From assembly GCA_007280935.1 (NCBI GenBank), contig QYQK01000101.1, forward strand, positions 1 through 38,178: a DNA stretch of 38,178 nucleotides. Direction: 5' to 3'. Position 1 is the first letter of the stretch. The number at the start of each line of letters is the position of its first letter. Of the stretch, positions 17,127 to 37,949 are shown one piece after another. A program made the position numbers and the translations under genes. Below the pieces are notes generated by a model. It did not search any database. It saw only the letters and a list, made by a program, of their open reading frames with translations, and was not told the origin of the DNA. The stretch is from Opitutales bacterium (GTDB taxonomy: Bacteria > Verrucomicrobiota > Verrucomicrobiia > Opitutales > UBA953).

Positions 17127-19010
17127 ATGTCCACCCGCCCGACGATGACTCCCCTTGAGGAGATCCGACATTCCGCCGCCCATATGCTGGGTGCGGCCGT
17201 TCTTCGCCTCTTTCCGCAGGCGCAGCTGGATATCGGGCCGCCCACCGATAATGGGTTCTATTACGACTTCGACGTGGATCATCTATTCACGGCCGACGAC
17301 TTGGTGAAGATCGAAGAGGAGATGCGTCGCATCTCAAAGGAGAACCAGAAGTTCGAACGTTTTGAATGCACGCGCGAAGAAGCGGATAAGTTGCTCCGTG
17401 AACGCGGTCAGAATGCCTATAAGCTCGGACGTCTGGCGGACATCCCGGCCGGCGAGACGATTTCATTTTATAAGAACGGCGAGTTTGTCGACCTCTGCGC
17501 GGGTACGCACGTTCGCTATTCGTCCCAGGTGAAGGCTTTCAAGTTACTCAACATCGCCGGCGCCTATCACCGCGGGGACGAAAAGAACAAACAGCTACAA
17601 CGTATCTACGGCACGGCTTTTGCGACCAAAGATGAGATGGAGCAGCACATGGTGCGTGTCGAAGAGGCCAAGAAGCGCGACCACCGCAAACTCGGCAAGG
17701 AGCTGAAGCTTTTCCATATCGACGAAAAGGTCGGCCAAGGCCTCGTGCTCTGGGTACCCAATGGTGCCATCGTCCGCCAGGAGCTGCAGAACTTCATTTC
17801 CGAACAGTTGTTCCTGACCGGGTATAAGCAGGTATTCACGCCCCACATCGGCAACCTAGACCTTTATCGGACCTCGGGACACTTCCCTTATTATAAGGAC
17901 GCACAATTCCCGCCGTTGGTTGAGCGCGAGGCGATGGAGCTCCTTTCCAAGGAAGGTTGCGCTTGTGGCGAACTGACCAACAAGCTCGAGGACGGTACCG
18001 TCCAAGGCTTCTTGCTGAAGCCGATGAATTGCCCGCACCACATCCGGATCTTCGCTTCGCAGCCGCACTCGTATCGCGATCTGCCCGTACGTCTGGCCGA
18101 GTTCGGGACGGTTTATCGTTGGGAGCAGTCGGGCGAGTTGAATGGCATGACCCGCGTCCGTGGTTTCACTCAAGACGATGGTCACTTGTTCTGCACCGAA
18201 GATCAGGTCGGCCCGGAAGTGCTGGGCTGTCTGGAACTCGTGAAGGTCGTGCTCAAGACCTTGGGTCTGAATGATTATCGCGTCCGGGTCGGGCTGCGGA
18301 ATCCTGATTCGAATAAATACACTGGCTCTTCAGAGAACTGGGATAAGGCCGAGGCCGCCTGCCGGGCCGCTGCCGCCACCTTAGGCGTCGCTTTCACCGA
18401 AGAGGCCGGCGAGGCCGCTTTCTACGGCCCCAAAATTGATTTTGTCGTCCGCGATGTCATCGGCCGTGAGTGGCAATTAGGCACCGTGCAGGTCGACTTC
18501 AATCTGCCCGAACGTTTCGAGCTTTCGTATATCGGTCCGGACAACAAGCCGCACCGCCCCGTGATGATCCACCGTGCGCCTTTCGGTTCGATGGAACGTT
18601 TCGTGGGTATCCTCATCGAGCATTTCGCCGGAGATTTTCCGACTTGGCTTTCCCCTGAACAGGTCCGACTGATTCCTTTGAACGATGATATGAATGCCGA
18701 TTGTCAAGCGATGGCCGAAGAGTTGAAGGCTGCGAAGATCCGTTGTTCCGTCGACGCTTCTTCGGATAAGCTCGGAGCCAAGATTCGTCGCGCCGAGATG
18801 TCCAAGGTGCCTCACATGCTCATCGTCGGGGCGAAGGAGAAGGAAGCTGGGGTAGTGAACGTCCGCTCCCGGGCTGACAAATCTTTCGAGGGTAACCGTA
18901 CGCTCGCGGACTTCATCTCGCTAATCACGGCCGAAGTCGCGGAACGTCGTCTCAAGGCTCACGTTCCGGTCGCGCCAGCCGTCGGTTCACCCGCCGCTCC
19001 TGGAGCCTGA
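17127..19010 (+). CDS. thrS: Threonyl-tRNA synthetase lacking the N-terminal TGS domain
   Basis: A class II synthetase charging tRNA-Thr. The 627-residue form starts almost directly in the N2 editing domain: HSAAHMLG near residue 17 and CAGTHV supply its HxxxH and C-x3-H metal/editing residues. The catalytic zinc ligands are present in KPMNCPHH, DDGHLFC and MIHRAPFGSMER, and the C-terminal anticodon-binding domain is complete. The roughly 60-residue TGS domain of E. coli ThrS is missing; upstream in-frame sequence lies in cysS and does not encode one. The length is made up by an insertion around EREAMELLSKEGCACGE, which contains C-A-C, and by an Ala/Pro-rich tail. No T-box leader is visible. 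Confidence 0.95.
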   Translation: MSTRPTMTPLEEIRHSAAHMLGAAVLRLFPQAQLDIGPPTDNGFYYDFDVDHLFTADDLVKIEEEMRRISKENQKFERFECTREEADKLLRERGQNAYKLGRLADIPAGETISFYKNGEFVDLCAGTHVRYSSQVKAFKLLNIAGAYHRGDEKNKQLQRIYGTAFATKDEMEQHMVRVEEAKKRDHRKLGKELKLFHIDEKVGQGLVLWVPNGAIVRQELQNFISEQLFLTGYKQVFTPHIGNLDLYRTSGHFPYYKDAQFPPLVEREAMELLSKEGCACGELTNKLEDGTVQGFLLKPMNCPHHIRIFASQPHSYRDLPVRLAEFGTVYRWEQSGELNGMTRVRGFTQDDGHLFCTEDQVGPEVLGCLELVKVVLKTLGLNDYRVRVGLRNPDSNKYTGSSENWDKAEAACRAAAATLGVAFTEEAGEAAFYGPKIDFVVRDVIGREWQLGTVQVDFNLPERFELSYIGPDNKPHRPVMIHRAPFGSMERFVGILIEHFAGDFPTWLSPEQVRLIPLNDDMNADCQAMAEELKAAKIRCSVDASSDKLGAKIRRAEMSKVPHMLIVGAKEKEAGVVNVRSRADKSFEGNRTLADFISLITAEVAERRLKAHVPVAPAVGSPAAPGA

Positions 19011-36585: not shown

Positions 36586-37248
36586 TTAGATCGGCTTCAC
36601 GACCGATTTCGCAATTCCTTGAATGACCAACTCGGTGACTGGTACTAAGTCGGGATAATTTGTATTCTCGGCTTTGAGGAATGTCTTGGACCCTTGTTTG
36701 ACCAATCGCTTCAGGGTAGTTTGACCGTCAATCAAGGCGGCGACGATATCGCCATGCTTGGGGTGGCCGGGTTCGATGATGACCGTGTCGCCATCATGGA
36801 TGTCGGCATCGATCATCGAATCTCCGCGGACGCGTAGCGCAAAGGACTGGGGGGCGCGCCGGCGAGAGCCTTCTGTGATCGGGGCCTGCATGCTTGCGAC
36901 CACGCCCGAAGATTCGGTGTAATCTGGCAAGCCGGCCGCAATCGAACCCATGAAGGGGATGCTACCCAGCTGGATAGCGTTCTCGTCGGGGCCTTCGTAA
37001 CGGATGATGGTTTCGGAAAGGTCTTCAACCAAGGCGACCGGGGCCACCTTATAGGCCCGGGCGGCGCCGGGGATGCGTTGGAGGACGCCTTTGCGCTCAA
37101 GGGCTTGGAGATGCCCGAAGACGGCGTTGGTGCTCGCAAAGCGGAACTTCGCCTGGATGTCCCGGATGCTCGGCCAGTAGGAGTGCTCCGCCACGTGGCC
37201 TTTCATGTATTCAAGGATGGCGGCCTGTTTCTTGGTCAGTTCTTCCAT
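36586..37248 (-). CDS. lexA: LexA repressor (SOS regulator)
   Basis: The 220-residue product has an N-terminal winged helix (about 1-68; LTKKQAAILEYMKGHV and SIRDIQAKFRFASTNAVFGHLQALERKG). The C-terminal S24 self-cleavage domain has the scissile A105-G106 in GSIAAGLP, nucleophile S144 in RGDSM and general base K180 in TTLKRLV. It represses DNA-damage genes and cuts itself when RecA is activated. Two LexA-type boxes lie immediately upstream of its own ATG (four bases away), so it is expected to repress itself. It converges on the SGNH esterase gene. The recognition-helix area is fairly divergent from E. coli LexA, as expected for another phylum. Confidence 0.95.
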   Translation of the reverse strand: MEELTKKQAAILEYMKGHVAEHSYWPSIRDIQAKFRFASTNAVFGHLQALERKGVLQRIPGAARAYKVAPVALVEDLSETIIRYEGPDENAIQLGSIPFMGSIAAGLPDYTESSGVVASMQAPITEGSRRRAPQSFALRVRGDSMIDADIHDGDTVIIEPGHPKHGDIVAALIDGQTTLKRLVKQGSKTFLKAENTNYPDLVPVTELVIQGIAKSVVKPI

Positions 37249-37251
37249 AGT

Positions 37252-37263
37252 GAACGGATGTTC
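37252..37263. promoter_or_regulatory. LexA box 1 in the lexA promoter
   Basis: GAAC-GGAT-GTTC is a perfect inverted repeat of the GAAC-N4-GTTC form known for Gram-positive LexA (DinR). It starts four bases before the lexA ATG as read on the minus strand, overlapping the expected transcription start. Confidence 0.7.
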
Positions 37264-37286
37264 TATGAAAACTTGTTCACTGTCAA
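37260..37286 (-). promoter_or_regulatory. Promoter of lexA
   Basis: On the minus strand a perfect TTGACA -35 box lies at 37286-37281. A -10-like TAGAAC (37265-37260) follows after a short 15-base spacer. The -35 is convincing; the -10 is only fair. The start codon would follow transcription start by about five bases. Box 2 falls between the two hexamers and box 1 overlaps the -10 and start, which suits repression by blocking polymerase. Confidence 0.5.
37267..37278. promoter_or_regulatory. LexA box 2 in the lexA promoter
   Basis: GAAA-ACTT-GTTC is one mismatch from GAAC-N4-GTTC, with its start 15 bases from that of box 1. Together the outer arms AGTGAAC (37249-37255) and GTTCACT (37275-37281) also form a perfect 7-bp inverted repeat. 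Both boxes lie between the -35 hexamer and the start codon. Confidence 0.6.
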
Positions 37287-37463
37287 GCCTAGGGGTTAAT
37301 TTGGGCTTTTATGGGTAGAACAGATCATTCGGCCGGTGGGATGGTTCGGGCCTTAGGGTGCCAACGCGATTTTGGACTTTAACCCCATCAAGCCTTAAAT
37401 CCTAAATTTCCCCGTAGGGGGTTCTCCTTGCTTGGTCCAAATGTCGCTGATTTGCCTGATCCC

Positions 37464-37949
37464 ATGTTACACTTCGATCCCATGACCCCCGAATCGACCC
37501 CATCGCCCCGCCCTGAGAAGAAAGCCAAGAAGCCTTTACCGGCGGGGGCCATTAAGCTGAGTAAGGGCACGCTGCCGGGATGGATTGTCTATGCGGTGGA
37601 GCTGCAGCCTTTCGCCGAGCTACCCATCGGGAAGCAGCGCGAACTTCAGGAGCTTAATCCTCAGGCCAAGGAGAAGGCTCGCGTCTTTTACGTCGGACAA
37701 TCGCGACACGAAGCGGTCGATCGCTATCAGAATCACCGGGCCGGATTCAATGCGAGCGCCTGGGTGAAGCGATTCGGGGTCAGGCTTATCGTGCTCGACC
37801 GGTGGGTGCCGGCGCTACGGGGGGTGCGCGCGCAAGTCGTGAAGGACATCTTTCTCATCGCCCAGCGCAATAAGGGCGAACCCACCGCCCGCGAACGCCG
37901 GGTGACCGAACTCCTGCGCAGTGAAGGCTTCTTCGTTTATTCCAAGTAG
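37464..37949 (+). CDS. GIY-YIG-like nuclease-fold protein, divergent
   Basis: The product is about 161 residues from ATG 37464 (a second ATG is at 37482; the track opens at a TTG). A Pro/Lys-rich N terminus precedes GWIVYAVELQPF, then an insertion of about 25 residues, then ARVFYVGQSRHEAVDRYQNHRAGFNASAWVKRFG. The latter matches the YVG-x-(T/S)...R...H..G core of the GIY-YIG fold, with the usual aromatic/Trp segment after it. The conserved catalytic Glu of the family is not clear; the helix where it should lie reads AQVVKDIFLIAQ. It may be an inactive or altered nuclease, or an unrelated protein that resembles the motif. It sits downstream of, and divergent from, lexA, with no LexA box of its own apparent near its start. 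Confidence 0.6.
   Translation: MLHFDPMTPESTPSPRPEKKAKKPLPAGAIKLSKGTLPGWIVYAVELQPFAELPIGKQRELQELNPQAKEKARVFYVGQSRHEAVDRYQNHRAGFNASAWVKRFGVRLIVLDRWVPALRGVRAQVVKDIFLIAQRNKGEPTARERRVTELLRSEGFFVYSK

Follow-up and report, generated by a model that had tools for sequence, protein, structure and literature searches.

LexA is a textbook case of a conserved regulator with an ever-changing DNA motif. For the Verrucomicrobia, a 2016 study by Erill et al. reportedly found that the LexA motif of Verrucomicrobium spinosum is TGTTC-N4-GAACA, and its abstract is said to describe how sites placed in tandem in lexA promoters give rise to copies of other LexA motifs; sites related to those described here could already have been noted in that work. 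In Escherichia coli, rmuC (yigN) is an SOS gene under the control of LexA. By 2021, 17 LexA motifs had been counted (PMC8565304). The Gram-positive LexA/DinR box, as found in Bacillus subtilis and Mycobacterium tuberculosis, is GAAC-N4-GTTC (PMC3323433), the LexA box of Staphylococcus aureus is CGAACAAATGTTCG, and the main DNA contacts of E. coli LexA are made by S39, N41, A42 and E45 (PMC11442139).

Here, we analyze the region upstream of lexA in a stretch of 38,178 nucleotides from an Opitutales bacterium, which as a whole we call the window. The genus to which it belongs consists of freshwater Opitutae/Opitutales metagenome-assembled genomes (MAGs), and its nearest named records are also MAGs, many of them from lakes (e.g., JAPLTU010000081, UBA953). 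Our main reading, to which we assign a probability of roughly 0.92, is that the block in front of lexA is an autoregulatory operator made up of two sites for LexA dimers, that the LexA of this genus would recognize GTGAAC-N4-GTTCAC, and that single sites of the same kind would control recA, umuDC and an operon of an open reading frame and rmuC (orf-rmuC). All of the evidence is sequence comparison, mostly among MAGs, and since the relatives compared are related to one another, the counts given below are not independent.

The block upstream of lexA

On the coding strand, the sequence upstream of lexA reads CTTGACAGTGAACAAGTTTTCATAGAACATCCGTTCACT-ATG, i.e., the block abuts the start codon. It contains two boxes located 15 bp apart, centre to centre (Table 1). 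The core of the first, GAACGGATGTTC (37252-37263, plus strand), is an exact GAAC-N4-GTTC, and that of the second, GAAAACTTGTTC (37267-37278, plus strand), has one mismatch to this pattern. A prior sequence-only reading of this DNA had described tandem GAAC-N4-GTTC boxes in the lexA promoter; the location, the gene and the first box hold, and the second box is inexact in one of its half-sites. The larger AGTGAAC...GTTCACT dyad that it described is exact, and TGTTC-N4-GAACA, which it had found not to be intact at lexA, is indeed absent from positions 37249-37281 of the window.

Table 1. Positions of the lexA gene and of the sequence elements in front of it, numbered along the window
Feature	Position	Strand	Description
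lexA	36586-37248	-	220 aa; LexA DNA-binding domain and S24 peptidase, from Pfam and alignment to E. coli LexA
Start-proximal LexA box (putative)	37250-37265	.	GTGAAC-GGAT-GTTCTA; exact core GAAC-N4-GTTC; kept in ~30 relatives
Start-distal LexA box (putative)	37265-37280	.	ATGAAA-ACTT-GTTCAC; one core mismatch, GAAA for GAAC
Outer dyad, lexA-proximal half-site AGTGAAC	37249-37255	.	Exact
Outer dyad, distal half-site GTTCACT	37275-37281	.	Exact; coding strand reads GTGAAC
Probable -35 element TTGACA	37281-37286	-	32 nt before the lexA ATG; from position and conservation
Possible weak -10 element TAGAAC	37260-37265	-	15-nt spacer; within the proximal operator; from position

Among 21 non-redundant genus promoters, both TTGACA and the proximal outer half-site GTTCAC (coding strand, -7 to -2) are invariant, and the imperfect inner half-site of the distal box is also conserved in the ~30 relatives, as TTTC or ATTC on the coding strand. 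We regard TTGACA as the probable -35 element of lexA, and TAGAAC as a possible, weak -10 element; several relatives within the order carry TATACA at about the -10 position, and a promoter scan found no strict sigma-70 pair at the lexA promoter. Since TTGACA and the ATG are so close together that a leader could hardly fit in, the lexA mRNA probably has no leader or a very short one, and the same may be true of the umuDC mRNA. The start codons of both lexA (window 37246-37286) and umuDC (L009 1490-1515) lie 1-6 nt past the operator, an arrangement that is conserved in the genus and leaves no room for a ribosome-binding site.

The LexA protein encoded in the window

The product of lexA matches PF01726 (E=5.5e-21) and PF00717 (E=5.8e-23), both over the Pfam cut-off, and aligns without gaps to residues 1-68 of E. 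coli LexA. It has the features expected of the LexA family, i.e., a winged helix-turn-helix (HTH) and an S24 peptidase domain together with an Ala-Gly bond and a Ser/Lys pair, which in the translation are Ala105-Gly106 and Ser144/Lys180, and from which self-cleavage is predicted. The recognition helix reads S39-T-N-A-V-F-G-H-L47; in the alignment to E. coli LexA, S39, N41 and A42 are retained, and G45 stands at the position of E45. Divergent from lexA is an open reading frame (37428-37949, plus strand) that has no Pfam match and looks GIY-YIG-like by eye.

Recurrence of the motif at other SOS promoters

The window contains two matches to GAAC-N4-GTTC against 0.68 expected, the second of which (17802-17813) is inside thrS and is a chance match, and the motif is enriched neither in the window nor in its own genome (38 copies against 41 for a control), so that one exact box alone proves nothing. 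The significance of the lexA box rests on its conservation and on its recurrence at other SOS promoters. In nine whole genomes, GTGAAC-N4-GTTCAC with at most one mismatch is present in 52 copies, against 9 for the reversed control; GTGTTC-N4-GAACAC shows no excess in the same nine genomes (6 against 12 for its control). In several genomes of the genus (L347-L354, L358), perfect or near-perfect copies of the former lie inside the RNase Y gene at its 3′ end, where conserved codons for R-E-Q-R-F-T explain the recurrence of the perfect 16-mer, although this 16-mer may regulate the next gene. We also set aside the sites of L021 and L003 (rimO), which are within coding sequence, and further one-mismatch matches (L371-L380 apart from those named), which either lie in a coding region or fail to recur.

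Promoters were scored out of 12 against GTGAAC-N4-GTTCAC (type A) and GTGTTC-N4-GAACAC (type B), with a threshold of at least 10. The sequence-only reading had named a lack of GAAC-N4-GTTC in orthologous lexA and recA promoters as the result that would count against it; in the genus and its near relatives, 30 of 30 lexA and 38 of 38 recA promoters reach the type A threshold, as do 26/26 umuD and 9/9 orf-rmuC promoters, and type B reaches it in 0 of these 103 promoters. The exact 12-mer GAACGGATGTTC recurs in the window's own genome beside the ATG of umuDC, as GTGAACGGATGTTCAC, and the recA promoter of this genome carries GTGAACATTTGTTCAT. The core GAAC-N4-GTTC is exact in the genus recA sites, in most umuDC sites and in one lexA box out of two, which bears out the Gram-positive-type arrangement noted earlier at lexA; this half-site order is shared by the recA, umuDC and orf-rmuC promoters. 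The box is located ~50-75 nt before the start of recA and orf-rmuC and adjoins the ATG of umuDC, in each case as a single site, versus two at lexA.

The canonical SOS set, i.e., lexA, recA and a translesion polymerase, therefore carries the box, as does orf-rmuC (RmuC, UmuD, UmuC and RecA were identified by Pfam). UmuC is the sole Y-family polymerase in each of nine genomes, so the imuB/dnaE2 cassette, suggested earlier as a place to look for the motif, is inapplicable here. The gene that precedes rmuC, and which is the first of the box-bearing operon (L364 942-1472, L367 1007-1540), encodes a conserved protein of ~177 aa (MREDIPEWLGKPP...) that matches no Pfam family and is a candidate new SOS gene.

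One could argue that LexA still reads TGTTC-N4-GAACA, and that GAAC-N4-GTTC at lexA is a by-product of neighbouring half-sites of tandem TGTTC-N4-GAACA sites. Arrangements of this kind do occur elsewhere: in family f11 of the order, sites lie 16 bp apart, which puts half-sites at 8-bp intervals, and a GTTC-N4-AAAC pair also occurs between them; L228, from another family, has a GTTC-N4-GAAC-N4-GTTC-N4-GAAC array. In the window, however, the inner pair at lexA is TTTC-N3-GAAC, with the wrong spacing and one base off. The phylum-type motif has no genome-wide excess, and every isolated site at recA, umuDC and orf-rmuC is of the GAAC-N4-GTTC form, with the phylum type at 0 of 73 at the threshold of at least 10/12. 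These single sites argue that GAAC-N4-GTTC is the working operator, and we consider a by-product very improbable.

Conservation of the lexA block

In the genus and its neighbours (~30 genomes), the stretch running from TTGACA up to the ATG has hardly changed, and the flank upstream of it has diverged: the lexA promoters average 1.42 bits per column over positions -45 to -1 versus 0.24 bits over -100 to -51. Nearly all of these genomes have an intact outer half-site on both sides (GTGAAC and GTTCAC), and the inner half-sites are weaker. Of 38 lexA promoters in the family, 25 have a box spacing of 15 bp and 5 a spacing of 14 bp; in five species, this 14-bp spacing is accompanied by one extra base after TTGACA, so that promoter length is kept. 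In 35 of 57 promoters outside the family, the tandem sites have a 15- or 16-bp spacing, versus ~9% of shuffles. The two sites are thus at a fixed spacing, as a cooperative tandem operator demands, and a predicted architecture of two LexA dimers on tandem sites, conserved across the order at 15-16 bp, is well supported.

A conserved block that contains an invariant TTGACA and stops at ATG might also be nothing but core promoter and translation start, with an incidental palindrome. This we judge scarcely credible, since the same 16-mer is found at recA, orf-rmuC and umuDC, where its register relative to any -35 element differs, and since the recA promoters of lineages that have no lexA mostly lack the box.

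Lineages without lexA

In genus g2, lexA was found in none of the sampled genomes, most of which are over 90% complete, and part of genus g4 is also without lexA. The recA loci of g2, a sister genus (L132-L139), mostly have no SOS box, i.e., lexA has apparently been lost and recA kept. At the same threshold, the recA box is present in 34 of 34 genomes with lexA versus 1 of 11 lexA-less g2/g4 genomes (Fisher p=3e-9, with relatedness ignored). The recA box is also present in seven genomes, from the genus or neighbouring genera, in which lexA was not found; most of them are incomplete MAGs. One of the seven, G006 (L359, L370, L085, L110), is a 99% complete genome of the genus that carries boxes at recA, umuD, umuC and orf-rmuC with lexA not found, for which a recent loss of lexA or an assembly gap is possible.

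A recA box in genus genomes where lexA was not found might also suggest that some other S24/HTH regulator binds the motif in place of the window's LexA, a suggestion to which we give hardly any weight, since UmuD, the other S24 protein of the window's own genome, shows no HTH domain, missing lexA genes are readily explained by incomplete MAGs, and the type of motif follows LexA clade and recognition helix.

LexA clades and motif types across the order and class

In a LexA tree of 99 rows, the LexA proteins of the order, except those of family f14, form one clade (71 of 99 rows, SH-aLRT 100) that includes the carriers of type A, and nearly all of its Opitutales members have the recognition helix STNxVxGH. 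Many of them have tandem sites of the TGNAC-N4-GTNCA kind that, as a rule, are spaced by 15 or 16 bp and end one base before ATG. Among 89 promoters of STNxVxGH LexA genes, the mean type A score is 9.48 versus 6.86 for shuffled sequence, with type A above type B in 80 and type B above type A in 0. Beyond the family, the boxes have degenerate inner half-sites (TGNAC-N4-GTNCA, or a looser form), and several promoters of the order score at chance level; AGTGAACAWWT...CAY is common to many recA promoters of the order.

LexA proteins of the same class with the helix SQTAAxSH, as well as two of three from f14, have GTGTTC-N4-GAACAC-like sites upstream, a small set of seven SQTAAxSH and three f14 sequences. 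These sites match the motif reported for V. spinosum. Relatives with the phylum-type motif are found in families f14, f30 and f51, and the recA promoters of f14 (L336-L344) carry neither motif clearly. With same-class relatives and one family of the same order bearing GTTC-N4-GAAC, the proposal that this lineage has a different LexA motif is borne out. Other families of the class (L217-L230) have further palindromes before lexA, e.g., ACCGTTC-N4-GAACGGT (L222) and a TATAC type, and these differences point to several LexA motifs within the class.

Compared base by base, types B and A differ in that the central two base pairs of each half-site are swapped (G-TT-C in type B, G-AA-C in type A), and the half-sites are not turned round. 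We tentatively suggest, at somewhat less than even odds, that in Opitutales the LexA operator changed from GTTC-N4-GAAC to GAAC-N4-GTTC by this central exchange, together with a change of the helix to STNxVxGH, and so converged on the Gram-positive solution; 8-bp-phased arrays like that of f11, which contain both readings, may be relics.

A model of the operator and its implications

If the block is the lexA operator, its two LexA-dimer sites, 15 bp apart, would cover the promoter from its -35 element up to the start codon, each box would bind one LexA dimer, and the bound dimers would obstruct RNA polymerase. DNA damage would lead to RecA filaments and to self-cleavage of LexA, which would leave the sites vacant and the four operons (lexA, recA, umuDC and orf-rmuC) expressed. 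Binding, repression and inducibility at these operators are all predictions. As each lexA box combines a strong outer with a weaker inner half-site at a fixed spacing, cooperation between the two dimers is probable.

Sister groups of one order appear to use two motifs of identical length and spacer, and the candidate residues are few (positions 41 and 43-45), which would make the operator change of a global repressor testable by residue swaps. Our findings also correct the assumption of one phylum-wide Verrucomicrobia LexA motif in the prediction of SOS regulons from environmental genomes.

Comparison with known LexA systems

The V. spinosum motif and the genus box come from the same phylum and agree in half-site length, spacer, outer GTG...CAC and the G and C of each half-site, and differ in that the middle two bases are exchanged (G-TT-C versus G-AA-C), which appears as a reversed half-site order; GTTC-N4-GAAC, the order typical of the phylum, does not reach the 10/12 threshold at lexA or recA in the genus. 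E. coli lexA, with tandem CTGT-N8-ACAG boxes, and, by prediction, the window lexA are both autoregulated via two adjacent LexA sites, although the half-sites differ, and the centres are 15 bp (about 1.4 turns) apart in the window, against two turns (21 bp) for E. coli. The rmuC genes of E. coli and of the genus are both linked to LexA, and that of the genus follows the 177-aa protein in one predicted operon. The Gram-positive LexA/DinR box is identical to the genus box in its 12-bp core, half-site order and N4 spacer; its flanks are CGAAC/GTTCG, and the genus box has GTGAAC/GTTCAC without the C/G flanks. Its hosts belong to a different phylum; the 99 rows of our LexA tree include no Gram-positive LexA, and the likeness described is one of operators. 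The LexA of B. subtilis has S39, V43, G45, H46 and L47 in common with the recognition helix of the window. The motif is, on this comparison, a putative lineage-specific LexA motif with a Gram-positive core, i.e., a variant of a known phenomenon.
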